From contig NC_014654.1 in NCBI RefSeq assembly GCF_000166415.1, positions 2,418,001-2,482,000 of the forward strand: DNA of 64,000 nt, given 5' to 3'. This DNA comes from Halanaerobium hydrogeniformans. Lineage in GTDB: Bacteria > Bacillota > Halanaerobiia > Halanaerobiales > Halanaerobiaceae. The notes under the pieces are model-generated. The model saw nothing but the letters and a program-made list of their open reading frames with translations, had not been told where the DNA came from and did no database searches. A program made the translations under genes and the position numbers. Position 1 is the first letter of the stretch. Every line of letters starts with the position of its first letter. Shown piece after piece: positions 5,276-64,000 of this stretch.

Positions 5276-5379
5276 AAAATGATAGCTAATCATAAAAAAT
5301 ATGATTTGCAAAGAAAATAAAATGCTTATAATTAAACTTTATGAGCACTATTAATTCCTGTTTCCCGAGGATTAGATAG

Positions 5380-5556
5380 AAATACAAAAGGCAGGTCTCC
5401 TGACTCCTGACATTAACAATTAAATTTATATCCTTCCCCAGTAAATACTGAGTGGATGTATTTAAATTTAATCTGTCAGTTACAGTGGCGGGCCCGTACA
5501 GGTTTTTCACCTGTTTCCCTATTCTCTTTCAGCCGTAACTGAAAGCACCTTGATGT
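5380..5556 (-). promoter_or_regulatory. Cobalamin riboswitch (cob operon)
   Basis: Read on the minus strand the region holds the conserved cobalamin-aptamer blocks in order: AAGGTGC at the 5' end, GGGAAACAGGTGAAAAACCTG, CGGGCCCGCCACTGT, and finally AGTCAGGAGACCTGCC. A terminator and the cobQ-cobQ-cobO-cbiC-cbiD genes follow. Adenosylcobalamin binding would favour termination and lower synthesis. The exact 3' boundary is approximate. Confidence 0.93.
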
Positions 5557-5728
5557 ATTATTATATTTGATTTTTTGATATACTAGTAGAAATATTATTA
5601 GAAAAATTATTGTTATCTATTTTACTTTATTCAATGCTTTTAATAAATATCCTGCAAAAAAAATCAAATTTATTTAAAACTGCCAAGAAAACTCCATCCA
5701 AGCTATGCATTAGGTGGAGATGAATTGG

Positions 5729-38094: not shown

Positions 38095-38265
38095 CACCCC
38101 TCTCATATCCCGTGAGTATCTGGTGATTAAATATGGCAGGTCTTCCGGCTTGGTTTGCAAAGCAGACCCTCTTCCCGGTTTCCCAGTGAGATAACAGTCT
38201 TTTTTTAAACCTTACGGCGGCGGGACCGCAGAGGACTTTAACCTCTTTCCCATTTTAATGCAATT
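38095..38265 (-). promoter_or_regulatory. Cobalamin riboswitch upstream of nrdD
   Basis: On the minus strand the conserved blocks appear in order: GGGAAAGAGGTTAAAGTCCTC, GCGGTCCCGCCGCCGTAAGG, a long variable arm, and CAAGCCGGAAGACCTGCC. The terminator at 38022 follows, then the RNR genes. When B12 is available a cobalamin-dependent class II RNR can serve, so shutting off the B12-independent enzyme makes sense. Boundaries are approximate. Confidence 0.9.
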
Positions 38266-38392
38266 ATTAATTTTCGTTTTAAACACCAAAACAATAATTA
38301 CAACCTATATTTAATAATATTAAATTTTTAATTGTTAGTAATTTCCTAAAATTTCTTCCAACTTATCTATATCTTATAATATTTGTTATCTA

Positions 38393-46897: not shown

Positions 46898-46899
46898 TT
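46839..46899 (+). terminator. Two adjacent plus-strand terminators without a gene
   Basis: CCCGCTC / GGGCGGG (46839-46860) followed by TTTTTATTTTT, then CCCACTC / GAGTGGG (46873-46892) followed by seven T. Neither has a T tract on the minus strand. They point to a plus-strand transcript ending here, possibly a small RNA. Confidence 0.7.
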
Positions 46900-48277
46900 A
46901 TTCAAGAAATTTTTGATTAAATTCTTCAGCTTTCTGATTATAATCAATTATTTCTTCATTCAATTTTTCTGCTTCATCTAAAGAATCAATAACTTCAAAT
47001 ACTTTTAGAACAGCAAAGACACTCAAATAAGAATTTCTATTATCACTATCATTAATTGCTGCTCCAATTAAAGCTCCTTCTCCAAGTAAAAAAAGTGCTC
47101 CTTTTGGCCACCAACTCTCTGTATATGCATGGCCTGCTGAAGGGATTACAGTAGACATTAAAGCAGCCTGAAATTTAGACTTCAATTCTATGGTCTCTAT
47201 TTCTCTTTTATCAGGTTCAAGTTTATGCAGTTCCCAATAAACATCACTACCCCTTAAAGATCTATTTTCTTCCAGATAATCTACAACTCTTTTCCCATTA
47301 TTATCTCTAGCGGTAGGATCTGCATTTTTAGCCAATAGTAACTCAATAATTTTAGGATTAGAATTATTTTTTGCAGCTGACATTAAAACACTTTTGCCGC
47401 TGTATGACTGTAAATTTACAAAAGCTCCATAAGATGTTAAAAGATTTAAATAAGCAGGATCTTCATGTCTTCTTACAGCATAAAAAAGCACAGTTTCTCC
47501 TTTGTGATCTTTAAGATTAACCCTAGCTCCATTCTTTAATAAAAAGTCCAGAGCGTTTAAATTATTATCAGTTACAGCATAAAAAATTGCTGTTTTACCA
47601 TTATCATCTCTCAGATTAATATCAGCTTCATTTTTAAGCAGATAATCTAATTCAGAAATATTTCTTCGGGCTGAAACAGCGTAAGCCAGTACAGTTTTAC
47701 CATTATTGTCCCTGGCATTAACATCTGCTCCCCAATCAATCAGAGTTTTGATTAAATCATGATTGCTTCTAGCTTGATAAGCAGTCATTAAAGGTTTAAC
47801 ACCTCTATTATTACCCAGATTCGGATCAGCTCCAAACCTTAATAAATACCAGATATTTCCCCTTTTATTATTTTCTGCAGCCAAATGAAGAGCCGTATTA
47901 CCAGCTTCGTTTTTAAGATTTAAGTTTCTATCAAATCGCATTACTTCTCTTAAAATTTCAGGATTGTTATTATAAGCTGCAGCATACATTAAAGCAGTCC
48001 AACCAGAGGAATCACGATAATAAATATTTGCTCCTTCTCTTCTCAGTAATCTAATTACTGCAGGATAAGGATTTTCTGCTGCAGCTGCCAGATAGGGAGT
48101 TATACCATCTTCGTCAACCATATTAACATCTGCTCCCTCAGCAATTGCGTCTGCAGCTTCATTTACTCCAGCATTTTTTATCAACTCAATAAAGCTTAGA
48201 TCTTCAGCTATTACTGGATTAGTTATTAATAATGAAACTATTATAAAGAATATGCTTAAATTTATTTTAGTTTTCAT
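46898..48277 (-). CDS. Exported ankyrin-repeat protein
   Basis: A 459-residue protein with a signal peptide (FFIIVSLLITNPVIA), then about nine ankyrin repeats from roughly residue 30 to 345 (repeat cores such as GWTALMYAAAYNNNPEIL and GKTVLAYAVSARRNISEL). A C-terminal region has a hydrophobic stretch (WPKGALFLLGEGALIGAAI) and ends in a charged helix. It is likely periplasmic or membrane-bound and used for protein binding; the partner is unknown. It starts 42 bases after purH with GGGAGGG and no terminator between, so it may be the last gene of the pur transcript. Confidence 0.85.
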   Translation of the reverse strand: MKTKINLSIFFIIVSLLITNPVIAEDLSFIELIKNAGVNEAADAIAEGADVNMVDEDGITPYLAAAAENPYPAVIRLLRREGANIYYRDSSGWTALMYAAAYNNNPEILREVMRFDRNLNLKNEAGNTALHLAAENNKRGNIWYLLRFGADPNLGNNRGVKPLMTAYQARSNHDLIKTLIDWGADVNARDNNGKTVLAYAVSARRNISELDYLLKNEADINLRDDNGKTAIFYAVTDNNLNALDFLLKNGARVNLKDHKGETVLFYAVRRHEDPAYLNLLTSYGAFVNLQSYSGKSVLMSAAKNNSNPKIIELLLAKNADPTARDNNGKRVVDYLEENRSLRGSDVYWELHKLEPDKREIETIELKSKFQAALMSTVIPSAGHAYTESWWPKGALFLLGEGALIGAAINDSDNRNSYLSVFAVLKVFEVIDSLDEAEKLNEEIIDYNQKAEEFNQKFLE

Positions 48278-48319: not shown

Positions 48320-49897
48320 TTAATGGCGGAAATGTCTTTTTCCTGTAAAGACCATTGCGATCCCTAATTTATCACAAGCCTCTATAACTTTATCATCTCT
48401 AATTGAACCACCAGGTTGAATTATTGCTTTAATCCCCAACTCAGCTGCTTTTTCTACAGCATCAGGGAAAGGAAAGAACGCATCTGAAGCAACAACACCA
48501 TCACGTTGACGTCCTTCTGCTTTACGACCAGCAATTATCATAGAATCAACCCGGCTCATCTGACCTGCGCCTACACCAACTACCATTTGTTCCTTAGCCA
48601 TAACTATAGCATTAGATTTAACATGTTTAACTACCTTCCAGGAAAATAATAAATCTTTAATTTCCTCTTCTGTAGGAGCTTTTTTTGTTACAACTTCGAG
48701 CTCATCAGCAGTAGTTTGTCCCAGATCTCTGTCTTGAACCAACATTCCTCCCGTTACTTTTTTCATACTATAACCAGGTTTATCATAATTTATTTTTAAT
48801 TCACCTGTTTTTAAAATTCTTACATTATCCCAGCGTTTTTTAAGAATTTTAAGTGCTTTTTCTTCATAATCGGGAGCAATCACTACTTCTACAAATTTAT
48901 CATCTTTTGCTATTTCAGAAGCTGCTTCTGCAGTTATAGTTCTGTTTGACGCAACAATTGAACCAAAAGCAGAAAGCGGATCACCTGCATGTGCTTTGAG
49001 AAAAGCATCTTTTACATTATCTCCTAAAGCCATACCACAGGGATTAGCATGCTTAATTACAGCTACAGCTGTATTATCTTCAAATTCTTTCACCAGTTCT
49101 AAAGCTCCATCAGTATCATTAATATTATTAAAAGATAGTGCTTTACCATGTAGTTGTTCCGCAGTTGAAATTGAAGGTTCATTTGTTTTTCGTTCTAAAT
49201 AAAAAGCTGCTTTTTGATGAGGATTTTCTCCATAACGAAGATCCATTTTTTTATCATATCTATCAAGTCTAATTTCTGGCATTTTCTCTTTCTCTTTATC
49301 TTCAAGAGCCAGGTCAGATAAGAAATCTTGAATTAACTGATCATATTCTGCTGTATGTCTAAATGCTTTATAAGCAAGCTTAAGCTTTTTAGATTTATTT
49401 AAAGCACCTTCAGCTGCTTTCATCTCATTTAAAATATTGTCATAGTCAGCTGGATCAACTACAACAGCTACATCCTGATGATTTTTTGCAGCAGAGCGTA
49501 TCATAGTAGGTCCACCTATATCAATGTTTTCAACGGCTTCTTCTAAAGTAACTCCTTCTTTTTTAATTGTCTCTGCAAAGGGATATAGATTACAGACCAC
49601 CAAATCAATCGTTTCAATATCTTGAGCAGCAATTTCTTTTAAGTGTTCTTTATTATCTCTAACAGCCAAAATTCCACCGTGAACTGCTGGATGAAGAGTC
49701 TTTACTCTACCGTTCATCATTTCCGGAAAATTAGTCACTTCACTAATATCTGTGACCTCAAGTCCACTTTCTTTTAGCAAACTACCTGTTCCACCTGTTG
49801 ATATAATTTCTACATCAAACTCTTTTAATCCTTTAGCAAAATCTACAATTCCTGCTTTGTTTGATACACTTATGAGAGCTTTTTTGATTTTAGACAA
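48320..49897 (-). CDS. purH: Bifunctional AICAR formyltransferase / IMP cyclohydrolase
   Basis: Catalyses the last two steps to IMP. The 525-residue chain has the N-terminal IMP cyclohydrolase domain (KALISVSNKAGIVDFAKGL, STGGTGSLLKESG) and the C-terminal formyltransferase domain with the Lys-His pair in VAVIKHANPCGMALG. It ends in the typical MVFTGKRHFRH. It follows purN by one base. Confidence 0.96.
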   Translation of the reverse strand: MSKIKKALISVSNKAGIVDFAKGLKEFDVEIISTGGTGSLLKESGLEVTDISEVTNFPEMMNGRVKTLHPAVHGGILAVRDNKEHLKEIAAQDIETIDLVVCNLYPFAETIKKEGVTLEEAVENIDIGGPTMIRSAAKNHQDVAVVVDPADYDNILNEMKAAEGALNKSKKLKLAYKAFRHTAEYDQLIQDFLSDLALEDKEKEKMPEIRLDRYDKKMDLRYGENPHQKAAFYLERKTNEPSISTAEQLHGKALSFNNINDTDGALELVKEFEDNTAVAVIKHANPCGMALGDNVKDAFLKAHAGDPLSAFGSIVASNRTITAEAASEIAKDDKFVEVVIAPDYEEKALKILKKRWDNVRILKTGELKINYDKPGYSMKKVTGGMLVQDRDLGQTTADELEVVTKKAPTEEEIKDLLFSWKVVKHVKSNAIVMAKEQMVVGVGAGQMSRVDSMIIAGRKAEGRQRDGVVASDAFFPFPDAVEKAAELGIKAIIQPGGSIRDDKVIEACDKLGIAMVFTGKRHFRH

Positions 49898-49898
49898 A

Positions 49899-50513
49899 TT
49901 ATTTCTCCTCCTTCAAAATTTTAACCTTTCTTCCCTCTAATTTAATCCTGTTTTCTGCAATTAATTTTACTGCTTCTGGATAAATTTTATGTTCTTCTTT
50001 TAGTATTCTAGCTGCCAGATCTTCAACTGTATCATCTTCTTCAACCTTAACAACAGCCTGTAAAATGATCGGTCCAGTATCCATTCCTTCATCTACAAAA
50101 TGAACTGTACATCCACTATATTTTACCCCATAATCTAAAGCCTGTTTTTGAGCATTTAAGCCTTTAAATGCAGGTAAAAGTGAAGGGTGTATATTAATAA
50201 TTTTATTTTTGTATTTTTTTACAAATAGAGGTGATAAAATTCGCATATATCCTGCTAATACAATTAAATCTATTTCTGCCATTTCTAAGATATTAATTAT
50301 TTCTTTTTCATATTCAATTTGATTTTCAAAATGCTCTGGATTAATAAAAATATTTTCTATTTCTTCACTTTCAGCTCTTTTTAGAGCACCGGAGTTTTCT
50401 TTATCACTCAACAAAACTTTAACTTCAGCTGGAACTTCTCCTCTATTAACTGCATCAATTATTGATTGAAAATTAGAGCCCCTTCCAGAAGCAAATACTG
50501 CAATTTTAAACAC
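49899..50513 (-). CDS. purN: Phosphoribosylglycinamide formyltransferase
   Basis: A 204-residue folate-dependent GAR transformylase with IAVFASGRGSNFQSIIDAV, the catalytic Asn-His pair in NIHPSLLPAFKGLNAQ and VHFVDEGMDTGPIILQ. It starts 4 bases after purM. It performs the third step of IMP synthesis using 10-formyl-tetrahydrofolate. Confidence 0.95.
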   Translation of the reverse strand: MFKIAVFASGRGSNFQSIIDAVNRGEVPAEVKVLLSDKENSGALKRAESEEIENIFINPEHFENQIEYEKEIINILEMAEIDLIVLAGYMRILSPLFVKKYKNKIINIHPSLLPAFKGLNAQKQALDYGVKYSGCTVHFVDEGMDTGPIILQAVVKVEEDDTVEDLAARILKEEHKIYPEAVKLIAENRIKLEGRKVKILKEEK

Positions 50514-50517
50514 TCTA

Positions 50518-51582
50518 TCACCCCATCTCTATTATCTCACCGGCTATTTTTATCTTCATACCATAATCTTGCGATTTCTCAATCTCTCCAATTTGATAAG
50601 GACTTTCCCCCTGTGCTTTTAATTCTGACATTATTTCTTTTTTATCTGAAGGATCTATAATCAAGACCATTCCGATCCCCATATTGAAAGTTCTTAACAT
50701 TTCAAAATCATCTATTTTTCCTGCTTCCTGGATAATTTTAAATATTTTTTGTTGCTCCCATTTTGATGAATCTATTTCTGCTGCTAATTGCTCTGGTAAA
50801 ATTCTGATAATGTTTTCTATTAATCCTCCTCCAGTAATATGAGCAATTCCATTTATGGAAAGATAATAATCTTCCAGGGTAGATAGTACAGATTTCACAT
50901 AAATTCTGGTTGGCTTGAGCAATTCTTCTCCCAAATTATTTTCTAATCCAGGTATTTTTTCCTGATAGTCATAGCCAGCTTTATTAAATAAAGCTGCTCT
51001 GGCCAGGGTAAAGCCATTACTGTGGAGACCATTTGAAGCTAAGCCAATAATTAAATTACCTTCTTTAATATTTTGACCTGTAATAATCTTGGACCTGTCT
51101 ACTATTCCAACTGCAAATCCTGCTAAATCATATTCTCCATCTTTATAAAAACCAGCCATTTCTGCAGTTTCACCACCAATTAAAGCAGCTGAAGATTCCT
51201 GACACCCTAATGCTATTCCCCTAACAATCTGAGCGGTCTTTTCTGGCTCCAATTTGCCTGTTGCTAAATAATCGAGAAAAAATAATGGCTTTGCTCCCTG
51301 GGCTAAAATGTCATTTACAGACATTGCCACTAAATCAATCCCAATACTATCATGTTTATCAAGTTTAAAGGCAAGCTTAAGTTTTGTCCCAACTCCATCT
51401 GTACCGGATACCAGAACAGGTTTTTCATATTTACCTAAATCTAACTGAAACAGCCCACCAAAACCTCCCAGAGAATTTAAAACCTCTGGTCCATGAGTTG
51501 CCTCAACATCTTTTTTCATCAAATTTACAGCCTTTTTCCCGGCATCAATATCTACACCTGATTCTTTATAATTAAGGCCCAC
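50518..51582 (-). CDS. purM: Phosphoribosylformylglycinamidine cyclo-ligase (AIR synthetase)
   Basis: A 354-residue ATP-dependent AIR synthetase with SGTDGVGTKLKLAFKL, ALIGGETAEMAGFY and GIAHITGGGLIENIIRILP. It starts at a GTG that overlaps the purF stop by one base, with GAGGAGG upstream. Its substrate FGAM comes from PurSLQ, which is not encoded in this operon. Confidence 0.95.
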   Translation of the reverse strand: MGLNYKESGVDIDAGKKAVNLMKKDVEATHGPEVLNSLGGFGGLFQLDLGKYEKPVLVSGTDGVGTKLKLAFKLDKHDSIGIDLVAMSVNDILAQGAKPLFFLDYLATGKLEPEKTAQIVRGIALGCQESSAALIGGETAEMAGFYKDGEYDLAGFAVGIVDRSKIITGQNIKEGNLIIGLASNGLHSNGFTLARAALFNKAGYDYQEKIPGLENNLGEELLKPTRIYVKSVLSTLEDYYLSINGIAHITGGGLIENIIRILPEQLAAEIDSSKWEQQKIFKIIQEAGKIDDFEMLRTFNMGIGMVLIIDPSDKKEIMSELKAQGESPYQIGEIEKSQDYGMKIKIAGEIIEMG

Positions 51583-53093
51583 TAGTTTTCCTCCTCAATT
51601 AAATATTTATTACTAATTGGATAATCACCATCAAAACAGGCAGTGCAAAAACCTAATTTTTTATCAGTATTAATTGCTTTAAGCATACCTGTTTGAGAAA
51701 GATAATGAAGACTTACCGCACCTATGCTTTCTGCAATCTCTTCAACCGTATTTCTACTGGCAATTAGCTCCTGTCTACGAGAAGTATCTAAACCAAAATA
51801 ACATGGGTGTTCTACCGGAGGTGAAGAAATTGCCATATGGACTTCACTTGCTCCAGCTTCTTTTATTCTTGAAATAATTTGTTTGCTGGTTGTCCCCCTT
51901 ACAATTGAATCATCAATCAAAATAACCTTTTTACCCTCAATAATTTCTTTGATAGGAGCTAATTTAAGCCTTACTTTAAGATCTCTAATTGCCTGAGAAG
52001 GCTGGATAAAAGTCCGCCCTACATAACGATTTCTTAATATTCCCTGGGCAAATTCTATTTCTGATTCTTCGGCAAAACCCAGTGCTGCAGGAATTCCTGA
52101 ATCTGGAACTGGTATTACTAAGTCAGCTTCTAAATCCATTTCTTTTGCAAGTTGTCTTCCCATTTCTTTTCTTGCTAAAAGAACATTTTGACCCTCTATA
52201 TTACTATCAGGTCTGGCAAAATAAATATATTCAAATACACATAAACTACTTTCCTTAGACCCACTATATTTTCTGCTTTTTAAACCATTTTCATTAATTA
52301 TTACAACTTCACCTGGTTCTACATCTCTAACGAATTCTGCGCCAACTATATCAAAAGCACAGCTTTCTGAAGCAACAATATAGCTGTTACCAGCTTTTCC
52401 AATTGAAAGAGGTCTAAAACCCTTTGGATCTCTTATTGCAACAAGACTATCTTTGGTCATTGCAACAATACTAAAGGCACCTTTAAGCTGGTGTAAACTT
52501 TGGATTAGAGCTTCCACGATATCATCCTCTAAAGCCCTTGCTACTAGATGAGCAATCACCTCAGTATCTAAAGTGGAATGAAATATTGAGCCATTCATTT
52601 CTAAATTATACCTAAGTGTCTCTGCATTAGCTACATTACCATTATGGGCAAGAGCAAGATCTCCTTTAATACTATTTATTAATAAAGGCTGTGCATTTGC
52701 TAAATGACTGGAGCCGCTAGTTGAATAACGAACATGCCCAATTGCCATTTCACCTTTCAAGTTCAAAAGATCCTCTTCATTAAAAACATTCTCTACTAAA
52801 CCCATTCCTTTATGAAGATCAAACTCTCCTTCGTGATTTGCACAAATGCCTGCACTTTCTTGGCCTCTATGCTGAAGTGCAATTAAACCAAGATAACTCA
52901 AATCAGCTGCACTACTTTTTCCATCAGCATTAAAAACACCAAAAACTCCACATTCTTCTCTCATTTTGTCTGCTCGATATTTCATTTCTGAACTGCAGAC
53001 TTTTTTCTTTTGTTTATTTTGTTTGCTTATATAACTGTTATTTTTATTGGATAATTTAATTTTTAAATTAGAGAAGTTATTTATTTCTCCCAT
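51582..53093 (-). CDS. purF: Amidophosphoribosyltransferase
   Basis: Commits PRPP to purine synthesis. The nucleophilic cysteine of the glutaminase domain is in KMREECGVFGVF (Cys48 from this start), and the PRPP-binding loop is VILIDDSIVRGTTSK. Four C-terminal cysteines, including CTACFDGD, suit the [4Fe-4S] form known from Bacillus. From the ATG at 53093 (AAGGGG upstream) the propeptide would be 47 residues; an ATG at 52985 would give the usual 11 but has no ribosome site. The 5' end is therefore uncertain. Confidence 0.93.
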   Translation of the reverse strand: MGEINNFSNLKIKLSNKNNSYISKQNKQKKKVCSSEMKYRADKMREECGVFGVFNADGKSSAADLSYLGLIALQHRGQESAGICANHEGEFDLHKGMGLVENVFNEEDLLNLKGEMAIGHVRYSTSGSSHLANAQPLLINSIKGDLALAHNGNVANAETLRYNLEMNGSIFHSTLDTEVIAHLVARALEDDIVEALIQSLHQLKGAFSIVAMTKDSLVAIRDPKGFRPLSIGKAGNSYIVASESCAFDIVGAEFVRDVEPGEVVIINENGLKSRKYSGSKESSLCVFEYIYFARPDSNIEGQNVLLARKEMGRQLAKEMDLEADLVIPVPDSGIPAALGFAEESEIEFAQGILRNRYVGRTFIQPSQAIRDLKVRLKLAPIKEIIEGKKVILIDDSIVRGTTSKQIISRIKEAGASEVHMAISSPPVEHPCYFGLDTSRRQELIASRNTVEEIAESIGAVSLHYLSQTGMLKAINTDKKLGFCTACFDGDYPISNKYLIEEEN

Positions 53094-53149
53094 TCTTATT
53101 TTCAGCCCCTTAATTAATATAAAAATTGAATCAAAATATCTGTTGAATG

Positions 53150-53869
53150 TTAAATTTTATTTTTCCCAGTAATTCTCTGTAGCATCTCTATATAGCCTGA
53201 CTCTACATCACCAAGATCTTTCCTAAATCTATCCTTATCAAGTTTTTGTTTAGTATAAGTATCCCAAAAACGACATGTATCAGGAGAAATCTCGTCAGCT
53301 AAAATGATCTCTCCAGAACTAGTGATGCCGAATTCTAATTTAAAATCAACCAGATCAACTCCCTTGCTTTTTGAAAAATCTCTTAAAACTCTATTGATTT
53401 TTTTCGCTTTTACTGTTATTTCATCAAGCTGTTCATAATCTGCCAGTTCTAAAATTTCAATATGCGAACGATTAATCAAAGGATCACCAAGCTGGTCATT
53501 TTTATAGTAAAATTCTACTATAGGTTTAGAGAGCTCAATACCTTCTTCAATCCCCAACCTTTTAACGAGACTTCCTGCAGAAATATTTCTAATCACAACT
53601 TCAATTAAAATTATATCAACTTTTTTAACTAAAGTTTCTCTTTTATTTAATTCTTTGATAAAATGTGTTTTAATTCCTTTTTTTTCTAAAACTTCAAAAA
53701 AGGCGTTAGATATTTTATTATTTATAATTCCCTTATTTTCAATCTGCCCTCTTTTTTGACCATCAAATGCAGTTGCATCATCTTTAAAGTAAACTATTAA
53801 CTCGTCTTTGTTATCTGTTTTAAAGATCTTTTTGGCTTTACCTTCATATAAGATTTCTTTTTTCTCCAT
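53150..53869 (-). CDS. purC: SAICAR synthetase
   Basis: A 239-residue enzyme joining aspartate to CAIR. Signatures: LYEGKAKKIFKTDNKDELIV, FKDDATAFDGQKRG, VEVVIRNISAGSLVKRLG and LADEISPDTCRFWD. It lies between purB and purF where Bacillus has purSQL as well; here only about 56 bases separate purC from purF. Confidence 0.96.
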   Translation of the reverse strand: MEKKEILYEGKAKKIFKTDNKDELIVYFKDDATAFDGQKRGQIENKGIINNKISNAFFEVLEKKGIKTHFIKELNKRETLVKKVDIILIEVVIRNISAGSLVKRLGIEEGIELSKPIVEFYYKNDQLGDPLINRSHIEILELADYEQLDEITVKAKKINRVLRDFSKSKGVDLVDFKLEFGITSSGEIILADEISPDTCRFWDTYTKQKLDKDRFRKDLGDVESGYIEMLQRITGKNKI

Positions 53870-53898
53870 TTGACTAACCTCCTGCCAGTTAAAGCTTT

Positions 53899-55290
53899 TT
53901 AATTTAAATTAAATTCTGCACGCCAGTTATTGACTATTTTTTCTGTTTTTTTAGCTGCTATTCCCGTATATTTAGCTGGATTTAAGATTAATTCTTTTTG
54001 TTTATCATTAAAATTCTCCCAGTAACCTTTTAAATCACTACTTTCTGCAACTAAATCTTTTAAAGAAAGATCTGTGCTCTGAGCCTTAAGAGTTAATTTC
54101 CTGACTGCTTCATGAGCATCTGGATGACCTGCAGCAGCTAACAATATATAAAGTGGTTCAGCTACAATCATCCTTTTGTTTTGTTCAAAGTTCTTTTTAA
54201 TATTTTCTTGATCAACCAACATCTTTTTACTAACTCGATTTAATCTTGCTGCTGCAGAAATTAAAGCTGCAATTAATTCTGGAACAAAACGTGAAGATGC
54301 TGAATTGGTTAAATCTCTCTGATGTTCAGAAAGCTGATCCATATAAATGGTATTCATTTGAGGCATAAAAGCTTTCCACATGCTTTTTACATTCTCATAG
54401 TTAATTGGATTTCTTTTGTGAGGCATAGTAGATGATCCAACCTGTTCTTCAGCAAAATGTTCACCTATTTCTGCTATTTCTGAACGCTGTAAATGCCTCA
54501 TATCATCGGCAAAAGCAGCCAAAACTCCAAATGTTGATACAAGACTATGAATAAAGTCAGTAATTGCTTCTGCAGCAACAATCTGGGTAGAATGTTCCCC
54601 AGCTTTAAGCCCTAGTTCTGCTAAAACTTCTTTTTCAAATTCTTCTGGATCATCAAAAAAGATACTGCTAGCATTATATGCTCCAACTGCTCCAGAAAAT
54701 TTCCCGACTAATTTTTGAGCTTTAGCTTCAACCTCTTTAATTCTCTCACCGAATCTGCTCACATATTCTGCAATTGTAAAGCCAAAAGTTATTGGTACTG
54801 CATGTTGACCGTGAGTTCTGCCGATCTGAACCCTATCTTTTTCTCTTTCGGCAATTTCTAACCAGGTCTTTTCTAATTCAATAAGTTGGGGAAGAATAAG
54901 GTCTTCTGCAGCTTTTTTATAACGAAGTGAATTTGCTGTATCAACAATATCATAAGATGTAGCAGTAAAGTGAATATATGGTCTTGTTTCTTTGCTAACT
55001 TTTTTTTGAATACAATTAACAAGTGCTCTTATATTATGCCTTGTTTTTGCTTCTTCTTTATAGACTTCTTCAGTATTTAACTCTTTAATGGCTTTTTCTA
55101 CTTCTTGAGGAGCATCTTGCGGACAAATACCTCGTTGGGCCAATACTTTTACTAAAGCTAATTCTACTTCTGCCTGAAAATAAATAGTGGCATTTTCAGA
55201 AAGATACTCAGATAATTCAGAAAAACTTTCCCCTCTAGAGTAGCGATGGTCAAGTGGACTTATATTGGCAAAAATATCTCTAGTCTGCAA
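53899..55290 (-). CDS. purB: Adenylosuccinate lyase
   Basis: A fumarase-superfamily lyase of about 463 residues acting on SAICAR and adenylosuccinate. The superfamily signature is [17 protein letters not shown] near residue 280, and histidines lie in [14 protein letters not shown]. The TTG at 55290 is chosen because GAGAGGAG is correctly spaced before it; an upstream TTG at 55308 overlaps that ribosome site. It overlaps purE by 11 bases. Confidence 0.94.
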
Positions 55291-55810
55291 ATTTTTCGCT
55301 CCTCTCAAAATATTCTTTATATCCTAATTCCTCTAATGAGGAAGCTGTAGCTAAAACTTTATTTTTCATTTTTTCTCTATATTCTTTCTGCTTTTCTCTT
55401 AATTCAGGATCTTTTCTGGCTAAAATCTGTACTGCCAAAAGTGCTGCATTTTTTGCACCATTAATAGCCACAGTTGCAACTGGAACCCCTGGAGGCATCT
55501 GAACTATTGAATAAAGTGAATCCAAACCATTTAATTTGGAGGTCTTAACCGGAACTCCTATTACCGGAAGATCAGTCACAGCTGCTGTCATTCCTGGTAG
55601 ATGAGCTGCACCACCTGCGCCAGCAATGATTACATCAAAATTATTTTTCTCTGCATTTTCTGCATAATTATATAACCTTTCTGGTGTACGATGAGCAGAT
55701 ACAACAGTTAGTTCATATTCAACTGCGAATTCATCTAATATTTCTGCGGCTTCTTTCATTACCGGTAGATCAGAATCACTGCCCATAATTATCGCTACTT
55801 TAGAATTCAT
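55280..55810 (-). CDS. purE: N5-CAIR mutase, catalytic subunit
   Basis: A 176-residue PurE with [35 protein letters not shown] and [20 protein letters not shown]. Class I PurE works with PurK, which is encoded just upstream. The related LarB at 13330 shares this fold but has a different role. Confidence 0.96.
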
Positions 55811-55858
55811 AAAACTCTCACTCCTATTTAGACTTGATTTTAAAGATTATTTAAAAAA

Positions 55859-57022
55859 TTAAATTTCACCTTTTATTTCAATCAATTTGCTCGCTTCTAA
55901 AGCCCTTTTTTCTGCCTCACTACGATTTTCAGCCAGCACACAAAGATGGCCCATTTTTCTTCCGGGTCTTGCTATATTTTTATTGTAGATATGTACTTTC
56001 ACTCCTTCAACTGCAAGAGCAGCTTCTAAACCGACCACTTTTGCTTTCCCTTCACTTCCACTTCCTAATATATTTCTCATTACTGCAGGCCTCAGCAGAG
56101 TAGTTTCTCCCAGTGGTAGAGAGGTGATGGCCCTTATATGTTGTTCAAATTGAGAAGTTAAGCAGGCTTCAATGGTATAATGACCAGAATTGTGGGGGCG
56201 AGGTGCTATTTCATTTATTAAAAGATCATCGGATTCAGTCACAAACATTTCTACACAGAACATACCTATTCCAGTAAATACCTCTAGAACTTCAAAGGCT
56301 AATTTATCAGCTTTTTCTTTTAAGCTAGCCGCAATCGAGGCGGGAACTTTTGTTTCATATAAAATATTATCTTTGTGCACATTTTCTGCAATCGGAAAAA
56401 CTTTCATTTCTCCATTCAGACCTCTACAGGCTAGAACAGATATCTCTTTTTTAAACGGTATATATTCTTCCACCATTAATTTTGCATTATCCCCACCTAA
56501 TTGCTGATAACTTTTTTTTATATCCTTTGGGCTATCAATAACTATATTTCCCTTACCATCATAACCACCTGTACAACTTTTTAACATTAAAGGATATGAA
56601 AATTTTTGAGCTGCTTCTTTAATATCATCTATACTGCTGACTTTTATAAACTTAGGCACGGGAATATTATTCTGACTGAGCATATTTTTTTGATGAAATT
56701 TATTTTGTATTATTTCTAAACTTCTAGCCGTAGGATAGATCTTATGACCTTCACTTTCTAAATCTTTTAAAACCTCTACTCCTATATGTTCAAATTCATA
56801 TGTCAATATATCAGATTTACTAGCAAGTTTTCTAATAGCAGCTTTATCATCAAAATCAGCTATGATATGCTCATCAGCAATACTGTCAGCCGGACATTTT
56901 TTAGTTGGATCAAGTATAATAACATAAAAGCCCATTTTTTTTGCCTCTAAAATCATCATTTTTCCAAGCTGACCACCACCGATAATCCCGATCTTTTCTT
57001 TGATCTTATCTTTAATCTCCAT
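55859..57022 (-). CDS. purK: N5-carboxyaminoimidazole ribonucleotide synthase
   Basis: A 387-residue ATP-grasp enzyme converting AIR and bicarbonate to N5-CAIR. IGIIGGGQLGKMMILEAKKM opens the fold; FSYPLMLKSCTGGYDGKGN and NEIAPRPHNSGHYTIEACLT are family marks. It lies 29 bases after purD and 48 before purE. Confidence 0.95.
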   Translation of the reverse strand: MEIKDKIKEKIGIIGGGQLGKMMILEAKKMGFYVIILDPTKKCPADSIADEHIIADFDDKAAIRKLASKSDILTYEFEHIGVEVLKDLESEGHKIYPTARSLEIIQNKFHQKNMLSQNNIPVPKFIKVSSIDDIKEAAQKFSYPLMLKSCTGGYDGKGNIVIDSPKDIKKSYQQLGGDNAKLMVEEYIPFKKEISVLACRGLNGEMKVFPIAENVHKDNILYETKVPASIAASLKEKADKLAFEVLEVFTGIGMFCVEMFVTESDDLLINEIAPRPHNSGHYTIEACLTSQFEQHIRAITSLPLGETTLLRPAVMRNILGSGSEGKAKVVGLEAALAVEGVKVHIYNKNIARPGRKMGHLCVLAENRSEAEKRALEASKLIEIKGEI

Positions 57023-57050: not shown

Positions 57051-58325
57051 TTATACTCTTTGCAGGGCTTTATATCCTATATCATGTCTAATATGAAAGT
57101 CTTCAAATTGGATTTTTTCTACTCCTTTATATGCCTTTTCAATCACTTCTGTAAAGCCATCTGCTAAAGCTGTAACAGCCAAAACACGGCCTCCATCAGT
57201 AAATAATTCTCCATTAACAGCTTTTGTACCTGCCTGGAAAACTATTAAATCATCTCTTTCTTCGAACATTTCTATTCCGGTAATTTTTTTGCCAGTTTCA
57301 TATTCTACAGGATAACCACCTGAAGCCATTACAACACAGAGAGCTTTTTTAGTAGACCACTCAATTTTTAGATCTCCTAATTTATTATTTAAAACTGCTT
57401 CAATTATTTCTAATAAATCGGTTTTTAAAAGTGGCAAAACAACCTGTGCTTCTGGATCTCCAAAACGAACATTATATTCTAATACTTTAGCTTTATTATT
57501 TTTTATCATCAAACCAAAATATATTATACCCTTAAAATCAATTCCTTCTTTCTGCAGGGCTTTTAAAGTAGGCTCCATTATCTCTTTTTTTATTTCTGAC
57601 ATCATTTTTTTGTCAACAACAGGTGCTGGCGCATAAGCTCCCATACCACCTGTATTTGGACCTTCATCTCCATCATAAACTGGCTTATGGTCTTGAGAAG
57701 GAATCATTGGTACTATACTTTCTCCATCACAAAATGATAAAATAGTTGCTTCTTCACCTTCCAGGTACTCTTCCACAACTATTTTTTCTCCTGCCTGACC
57801 AAACTTCTCATCAATCATAATTTTTTCAACAGCATTTAGAGCTTCTTCTAGATGCTGAGCTACTATAACCCCTTTACCAGCTGCCAGACCTTCTGCTTTA
57901 ACAACAATAGGTACTCCTTTTTCTTTGATATATTTTCTGGCATCTTTGGGATCAGAAAAACTCTTATATTCAGCTGTAGGAATATTATATTTCTGCATTA
58001 AATTTTTCGCAAAAACTTTACTGCTTTCTAATTGGGCAGCATCTTTTGTAGGACCAAAAACCTTAATACCATGTTCTTTAAATAAATCAACAATGCCGGC
58101 AGCTAAAGGAGCTTCAGGCCCTACTATGGTAATATCTATTTTTTCTTTTAGGGCAAACTCCAGTAAACCCTGATGATTATTTTCTTCAAAATCAAGGTTT
58201 TCACCAAATTTAGCAGTCCCTGGATTACCGGCTGCTATATATAGTTCGTCAACCTTATTACTTTGTGCGAGTTTCCAAGCTAGTGCATTTTCTCTTCCAC
58301 CACTTCCGATGAGAAGAATATTCAT
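57051..58325 (-). CDS. purD: Phosphoribosylamine-glycine ligase
   Basis: A 424-residue ATP-grasp GAR synthetase, first gene of the pur operon. Signatures: NILLIGSGGRENALAWKL, VGPEAPLAAGIVDLF, VVKAEGLAAGKGVIVA and LEYNVRFGDPEAQ. The ATG at 58325 is preferred over a GTG three codons earlier because AGGGGTGG is correctly placed. It follows the tandem riboswitch leader. Confidence 0.95.
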   Translation of the reverse strand: MNILLIGSGGRENALAWKLAQSNKVDELYIAAGNPGTAKFGENLDFEENNHQGLLEFALKEKIDITIVGPEAPLAAGIVDLFKEHGIKVFGPTKDAAQLESSKVFAKNLMQKYNIPTAEYKSFSDPKDARKYIKEKGVPIVVKAEGLAAGKGVIVAQHLEEALNAVEKIMIDEKFGQAGEKIVVEEYLEGEEATILSFCDGESIVPMIPSQDHKPVYDGDEGPNTGGMGAYAPAPVVDKKMMSEIKKEIMEPTLKALQKEGIDFKGIIYFGLMIKNNKAKVLEYNVRFGDPEAQVVLPLLKTDLLEIIEAVLNNKLGDLKIEWSTKKALCVVMASGGYPVEYETGKKITGIEMFEERDDLIVFQAGTKAVNGELFTDGGRVLAVTALADGFTEVIEKAYKGVEKIQFEDFHIRHDIGYKALQRV

Positions 58326-58399
58326 TCTATCCACCCCTAGTTTGATTTTTTCTCAGATATCCTAAAATGAATTGTAGAATAACTGGATAATTGTGTACT

Positions 58400-58463
58400 A
58401 AATAAAAAGAGCCCAGGTCAGGAAGACTCTACATTAATTGAGTAGAACCTCCCCGCCTGGGCT
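58400..58463 (-). terminator. Terminator of the pur operon leader
   Basis: AGCCCAGG / CCTGGGCT (58410-58417 with 58456-58463) encloses an inner hairpin and is followed by CTTTTTATTT on the minus strand. Its 5' arm shares bases with the 3' edge of the PRPP aptamer, so aptamer folding and termination compete. Confidence 0.85.
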
Positions 58464-58538
58464 TTTATCCCTTCGGTGTGATATATCAATATCTGTACCG
58501 CTCGGACCAGCCAGCCTTAGCTGCGGAAACCTAGGTAC
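58448..58538 (-). promoter_or_regulatory. PRPP riboswitch aptamer (ykkC subtype 2 family)
   Basis: On the minus strand CCTAGGTTTCCGC, GGCTGGTCCGAGCGGTAC, ACACCG and GGGATAAAAGCCC, followed by GGGGAGG, match the ykkC-family layout. The operon content and the guanine aptamer directly upstream favour the PRPP class over guanidine or ppGpp classes. PRPP binding would prevent the terminator and turn the pur genes on. Confidence 0.75.
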
Positions 58539-58543
58539 ACTTC

Positions 58544-58612
58544 CCTCATAGGCAAACTGTTTAAGGCAGTTCGGTAGAGACTTGTGAGCCATATTCTCAC
58601 TATTATATGAGG
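58544..58612 (-). promoter_or_regulatory. Guanine-type purine riboswitch aptamer
   Basis: The minus strand reads CCTCATATAATAGTGAGAATA with TGGCTCAC, GTCTCTACCGAACTG and GCCTATGAGG, the three-way junction of purine riboswitches. The position that pairs with the ligand is C, so guanine rather than adenine is expected. The base before it is C where A is usual. It lies 5 bases upstream of the PRPP aptamer and has no terminator of its own. Confidence 0.9.
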
Positions 58613-58648
58613 TACAAATTCAGTTTTGACTTTAGTTCATACATGTCA

Positions 58649-58677
58649 ATATTAACAGATGAATTTTAAGAAGTCAA
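58649..58677 (-). promoter_or_regulatory. Promoter of the pur operon
   Basis: On the minus strand TTGACT (58672-58677) and TAATAT (58649-58654) have a 17-base spacer and lie about 40 bases upstream of the guanine aptamer. Confidence 0.55.
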
Positions 58678-63384: not shown

Positions 63385-64000
63385 TTAAGTATTAGTTGCT
63401 TGTGCATATCTTTCCGTAAAACTGAAGTATCCCAGTTTCTTTAATAACTGGTTGGTAAAGGTTCTTGCAAGTATTGGGCTATTGGATATTCTCCAGTAGC
63501 CTTTCCTTGTGTTAGCATATTTCCATGCCTTAGCTTCTTTGATACCCAGTTTCCTGAGCATCTTAAAGCGGGTTCTAATTTTCTTCCACCTCTTCCAGTA
63601 GCACATTCTTATTCTTCGTCTTGCCCACTGGTCAAGTTCCCTCATCTTTCTTTTCATATCAGCTATTTTATAGTAGCTGACCCAGCCTGTGATTATCTGT
63701 TTTAATTTCTTAAAACGATATTTCATTGTCCATGGCTTACTCCTTGATGTGAGTGCTTTTATCTTTCCTTTAATTTTCTTAATCGATTTCGGGTGGATTC
63801 TAACCCTTACTTCACCTTTCCTACTATAGAATGAAAACCCTAAGAATTTTCTTCTCCAGGGTCTGCCGACTGCACTTTTCCTTGCATTGACTTTAAGTTT
63901 GAGTTTCTTTTCAACAAATACAGTTATGCTTTCCATAACTCTCTTGGCCGCTTTTCTGCTTCTGACATAGATCTGACTATCATCAGCGTAGCGACAGAAT
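63385..64000 (-). CDS. ltrA: Group II intron reverse transcriptase/maturase, partial
   Basis: The visible 205 codons hold the end of the reverse-transcriptase domain, including the catalytic CRYADDSQIYVRS near the window edge. They continue with the thumb/maturase domain X (RKFLGFSFYSRKGEVRVRIH, ITGWVSYYKIADMKRKMREL) and end YFSFTERYAQATNT. The N-terminal RT blocks are outside the window. An ATG at 63936 is internal and not the real start. Confidence 0.92.
   Translation of the reverse strand, partial: FCRYADDSQIYVRSRKAAKRVMESITVFVEKKLKLKVNARKSAVGRPWRRKFLGFSFYSRKGEVRVRIHPKSIKKIKGKIKALTSRSKPWTMKYRFKKLKQIITGWVSYYKIADMKRKMRELDQWARRRIRMCYWKRWKKIRTRFKMLRKLGIKEAKAWKYANTRKGYWRISNSPILARTFTNQLLKKLGYFSFTERYAQATNT

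Follow-up and report, generated by a model that had tools for sequence, protein, structure and literature searches.

Background

How can two aptamers in front of a single terminator turn two ligands into one regulatory decision, and does the leader of the purine biosynthesis operon of Halanaerobium hydrogeniformans belong to this kind of device? Tandems of a guanine and a PRPP riboswitch are known from Firmicutes, with 127 described by Sherlock et al. 2018 (eLife 7:e33908; PMC5912903) and 192 counted in a 2022 review (PMC9481103). The P1 stems of the two aptamers are spaced 5–7 nt apart in the published tandems (PMC5912903). In the B. megaterium codA tandem, PRPP overrides guanine and expression is switched off solely when guanine is present and PRPP absent, which constitutes an IMPLY gate (PMC5912903). 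Published in-line probing found that PRPP tightens, and guanine loosens, the 5' end of the PRPP aptamer (PMC5912903). For the T. mathranii tandem, Knappenberger et al. 2018 predicted from one sequence that P0 of the PRPP aptamer and P1 of the guanine aptamer are mutually exclusive (PMC6031431), and according to the 2022 review the structural basis of tandem IMPLY logic was not yet established (PMC9481103). Here we describe a tandem in a 64,000-nt stretch of the H. hydrogeniformans genome (hereafter, the window) and compare its strands with those of other tandems.

Results

Layout of the element and the genes it precedes

The leader element extends on the minus strand from approximately 58640 down to 58404. 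From 58612 to 58404 it consists of a purine-class aptamer, 5 nt, a ykkC-fold aptamer and one terminator, followed by pur genes. The features are as follows:

58649..58677 (-), promoter-like site TTGACT-17-TAATAT whose second hexamer is preceded by TG, nine of 12 consensus matches
58544..58612 (-), guanine-type aptamer, from the RF00167 alignment
58612-58606 with 58550-58544 (-), P1 of the guanine aptamer, from the RF00167 alignment
58600-58584 (-), P2 of the guanine aptamer, from the RF00167 alignment
58573-58553 (-), P3 of the guanine aptamer, from the RF00167 alignment
58552 and 58551 (-), C73 and C74, forming J3/1 of the guanine aptamer, from the RF00167 alignment
58539..58543 (-), GAAGU, a 5-nt linker that separates the P1 stems and whose GAA forms the core of PRPP P0
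58445..58543 (-), predicted ykkC subtype 2b (PRPP) aptamer, from the RF00442 alignment and the diagnostic bases of PMC6031431
58538-58534 with 58499-58495 (-), P1 of the PRPP aptamer
58471-58469 with 58461-58459 (-), P3 of the PRPP aptamer
58541..58548 (-), shared strand UGAGGGAA, in which 58548-58544 serves as 3' strand of guanine P1 or, alternatively, as 5' strand of extended PRPP P0
58439..58447 (-), PRPP 3' tail UUCUACUCA, which pairs with the shared strand when P0 is extended
58404..58463 (-), the one intrinsic terminator, common to both aptamers, a 22-bp stem followed by CUUUUU, -35.6 kcal/mol
57051..58334 (-), purD, at the head of the operon (TIGR00877, 565.8 bits)
48320..57022 (-), purK, purE, purB, purC, purF, purM, purN and purH, close-packed on the same strand as purD

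Exactly 5 nt separate the end of the purine P1 (58544) from the start of the ykkC P1 (58538), which is within the published range. The guanine aptamer lies directly upstream of the PRPP aptamer with no terminator between them. The PRPP aptamer ends in a conserved GGUUC tail, and its 3' part is overlapped by the 5' arm of the terminator, whose stem begins in the 3' strand of P3. Transcription is predicted to start near 58642 from the promoter-like site, which is weak when taken alone (1.3 such sites are expected by chance in the region, based on shuffles); Halanaerobium relatives carry a comparable sequence. In the operon, purB scores slightly below threshold (312.4 against a cut-off of 326.2). 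A blastn search against plasmids for similar DNA gave no match.

By its sequence, the element is a guanine–PRPP tandem riboswitch of the published kind, and it shows every structural feature of these tandems. The initial annotation, which gave no strand, had described guanine and PRPP aptamers 5 bases apart, sharing one terminator in front of a pur operon in the manner of a Boolean gate reported in Firmicutes, and the aptamers, their spacing, the terminator and the operon are borne out. It shares with the tandems of Sherlock et al. the guanine-to-PRPP order, the 5-nt spacing, a shared terminator overlapping the PRPP aptamer, and purine biosynthesis genes. The assayed example was B. megaterium codA, whereas here purD heads the operon, J3/1 has C73, and the element is known from sequence. 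With its one expression platform, the tandem is predicted to attenuate transcription of purDKEBCFMNH. By analogy, IMPLY logic (OFF when guanine is present and PRPP absent, otherwise ON) would be expected here as well; the initial annotation's reading that PRPP activates and guanine overrides reverses the order seen in the B. megaterium tandem (PMC5912903).

Several other features of the window were observed. Directly after purH, an ORF at 46898-48277 (-) has below-cut-off matches to ankyrin-repeat families that probably reflect repeats only. Two cobalamin riboswitches (RF00174) are found on the minus strand at 5373-5568 (110.3 bits) and 38118-38305 (86.2 bits). An ORF at 63385-63999 (-), running off the window end, resembles by eye the C-terminal part of a group II intron reverse transcriptase/maturase.

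A strand shared by guanine P1 and PRPP P0

Five nucleotides belong both to the guanine P1 3' strand (58550-58544) and to the extended P0 5' strand (58548-58541), so the two helices cannot both form fully at once. Extended P0 comprises 8 bp around a GAA/UUC core with a single bulged A at 58443, and the 5' arm of the terminator contains both the P3 3' strand and the P0-making tail. In the mechanism we propose, extended P0 and P3 would hold the tail when no ligand is bound, acting as an antiterminator (ON). Upon binding of guanine, P1 would be locked and the shared strand taken back, leaving P0 with approximately 3 bp and allowing the tail to join the terminator (OFF); in this OFF state the first part of the PRPP 3' tail (58439..58447) would sit in the terminator 5' arm. 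PRPP bound across P0 and P3 would hold the tail even with guanine present (ON), and the net result would be an IMPLY gate whose single OFF condition is guanine in the absence of PRPP. The ligand effects in this RNA are carried over from the published assays. When the RNA of the window was folded, extended P0 (-47.2 kcal/mol) and P1 with a 3-bp P0 (-47.4 kcal/mol) were near-equal, and both lay above the unconstrained fold (-56.7 kcal/mol); the ligand-free ON state is therefore only a proposal for this RNA.

In order to compare the two strands across tandems, 73 genome loci found by pattern, together with further genomes, were parsed into 81 distinct tandem and 63 singlet strand pairs. Each of the 81 distinct tandems can form a P0, 6-13 bp long (median 9), that includes at least 3 nt of the guanine P1 3' strand. 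The tails pair better with their own partners than tails swapped among tandems do (7.28 versus 6.60, sd 0.12), and the best of 1000 swaps reached 7.03. In 38 tandems that could be placed in one register, 81% of cells at positions -4 to -9 are paired, versus 45-55% when the strands are slid. These 38 tandems contain 15 double-changed cells versus a shuffle mean of 7.3, and 0 of 2000 shuffles, in which relatedness is uncontrolled, reached 15; a slide of +1 also gives 16 double changes, though with few paired cells. In one distant relative (L038), three successive pairs have changed together. Several tandems of the Tissierellia type have most of the complementary tail in the terminator loop, and its complementarity to the P1 strand therefore cannot stem from terminator pairing.

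When only the pairs that involve the P1 strand are counted, own tails show no significant advantage over swapped ones (the observed value was reached in 600 of 5000 permutations). What carries the argument is therefore the pairing of the whole helix, the compensatory changes and the tandems whose tail is terminator loop. A long P0 is also not unique to tandems, as singlet PRPP switches have a median P0 of 7 bp (63 pairs). As a separate candidate, a GUACC repeat in the leader and PRPP P1 was considered as a competitor helix and rejected, as it is not conserved beyond Halanaerobium and near relatives.

The T. mathranii PRPP aptamer likewise has the ykkC fold with P0 and lies within a tandem; its P0/P1 exclusion was predicted from one sequence, whereas here the exclusion draws on the comparison of 81 distinct tandems. 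The comparison of sequences supports and generalises the mutual-exclusion model of Knappenberger et al. 2018, to which it is a modest addition. The two aptamers might instead interfere by steric clash at their junction, an alternative raised by Sherlock et al. 2018 (PMC5912903) that accords with the abutting stems and the 5 nt between them. A clash appears unlikely to be the explanation, given that complementarity between the guanine P1 3' strand and the PRPP tail is conserved and covaries across tandems, and holds also where the tail is the terminator loop.

The ligand of the guanine aptamer

The Rfam Purine model, a check suggested with the initial annotation, matches 58529-58630 (-) over its full length with 82.4 bits against a cut-off of 37 (E = 2.7e-13 over the full 64,000 nt). 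Compared with guanine-type riboswitches of RF00167, the aptamer retains U22, U51 and C74, and differs by A73C in J3/1 and G62U in L3. The C preceding the ligand-pairing C, already pointed out in the initial annotation, is real: in the RF00167 alignment, C73-C74 (58552-58551) replaces the consensus A73-C74. It is accompanied by an L3 loop that reads CCUUAAA instead of CCGUAAA. Both changes are common to the sister genome G010 (L046), and C73 recurs with a standard L3 in another family (L030, 85.9 bits). The A73 of guanine aptamers, absent at 58552, is usual rather than defining: of 43 distinct tandems sampled irrespective of A73, 35 have A as base 73, four G (some of which resemble deletions), two C and two U. 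The literature searched contained no paper on what A73 does in guanine riboswitches.

Since U22, U51 and C74, which have been named as ligand contacts (PMC9295807), are all retained, guanine remains the expected ligand; C at position 74 denotes the guanine rather than the adenine type. From its sequence, the first aptamer most likely still binds guanine despite A73C, possibly with a change in affinity. Could the aptamer have lost or changed its specificity, leaving what is effectively a one-input PRPP switch? Two departures from consensus co-occur in the window's genome and its sister, and in rare variants altered ligands come with changes in J3/1. This nevertheless seems improbable in view of the 82.4-bit match and the three retained contacts; J3/1 is non-A or altered in eight of the 43 tandems, A73C is present in two species and has therefore persisted, and the other-family aptamer combining A73C with a standard L3 outscores this one.

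The class of the second aptamer

The only ykkC-fold match in the Rfam search was Guanidine-I (RF00442), at 58452-58545 (-), where it spans the full model length and overlaps the 3' end of the RF00167 match; it scores 55.7 bits (E = 3.7e-9) and so falls short of the model's cut-off, which is 63. There was no PRPP family among the matches, and the ykkC class was therefore judged from diagnostic bases in structural papers. These are a pyrimidine at position 49, which is A in guanidine-I, and position 96, at which G denotes PRPP and a different or absent base ppGpp (PMC6031431). The '49' site, mapped by motif, is C (GAGCGG versus GAGAG in the consensus). The '96' site is G in CCCAGGCGGGGAGG, counted back from A103-G104-G105 and thus mapped by motif spacing rather than by alignment to the solved T. 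mathranii RNA. The P0-forming tails (GAA and UUC) are present and can be extended to 8 bp.

The C at '49', the G at '96', the P0 tails and the purine-synthesis genes indicate that the second aptamer is almost certainly a PRPP aptamer of ykkC subtype 2b; gene context and the guanine partner agree with this assignment. It has the same scaffold as the Guanidine-I riboswitch (ykkC subtype 1) and is set apart from it by the below-cut-off score, a C in place of the guanidine-I A, and an extra P0. Although the sole Rfam match is to the guanidine-I model and altering position 96 alone switches the specificity from PRPP to ppGpp (PMC6031431), sensing of ppGpp (ykkC 2a) or guanidine is highly improbable given the sub-threshold score, the two diagnostic bases, the P0 tails, the de novo purine synthesis genes and the pairing of this aptamer with a guanine aptamer in close relatives.

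Distribution among relatives

A PRPP-aptamer sequence pattern was found in 40 of the 59 genomes of the class, and nearly all ykkC matches adjoin a purine match. Because the same tandem occurs in most genomes of the class, the tandem is, as far as these patterns indicate, old in this group and not a product of chance. The window's genome contains no other ykkC match.

The same genome has one further purine riboswitch, a guanine-type singlet with the usual A73 (L002 1501-1600; G000:C1:2308738-2308837; 73.0 bits). It lies upstream of an ORF that by eye resembles an NCS2-type permease, and an ORF resembling adenine deaminase lies on its other side. Long P1b hairpin insertions were observed in the PRPP aptamers of Halanaerobium relatives (L024, L033, L051, L059 and L061), and the Rfam guanidine-I search missed some Halanaerobium-relative genomes with such insertions (G007 and G016). 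Two PRPP-aptamer elements occur within at most 8 kb of each other on several Tissierellia and related contigs (L108, L114, L118, L138, L142 and L146). In L114, one of the elements has strongly altered sequence at the expected place of the guanine aptamer.

Discussion

The purDKEBCFMNH leader of H. hydrogeniformans very probably carries a guanine–PRPP tandem that acts as an IMPLY gate by strand exchange between P1 and extended P0, with guanine kept as a ligand. We tentatively suggest that this exchange, with a ligand-free antiterminator, might be the general IMPLY mechanism across several Firmicutes lineages, within which the A73C lineage might have retuned its guanine aptamer; this wider view is possible rather than probable. 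The single element described here extends a known logic-gate riboswitch, and the comparison bears on how two aptamers and one terminator yield IMPLY logic. As the exact shared strand and its partners are named, the proposal of Knappenberger et al. 2018 becomes testable by strand-specific compensatory mutants.
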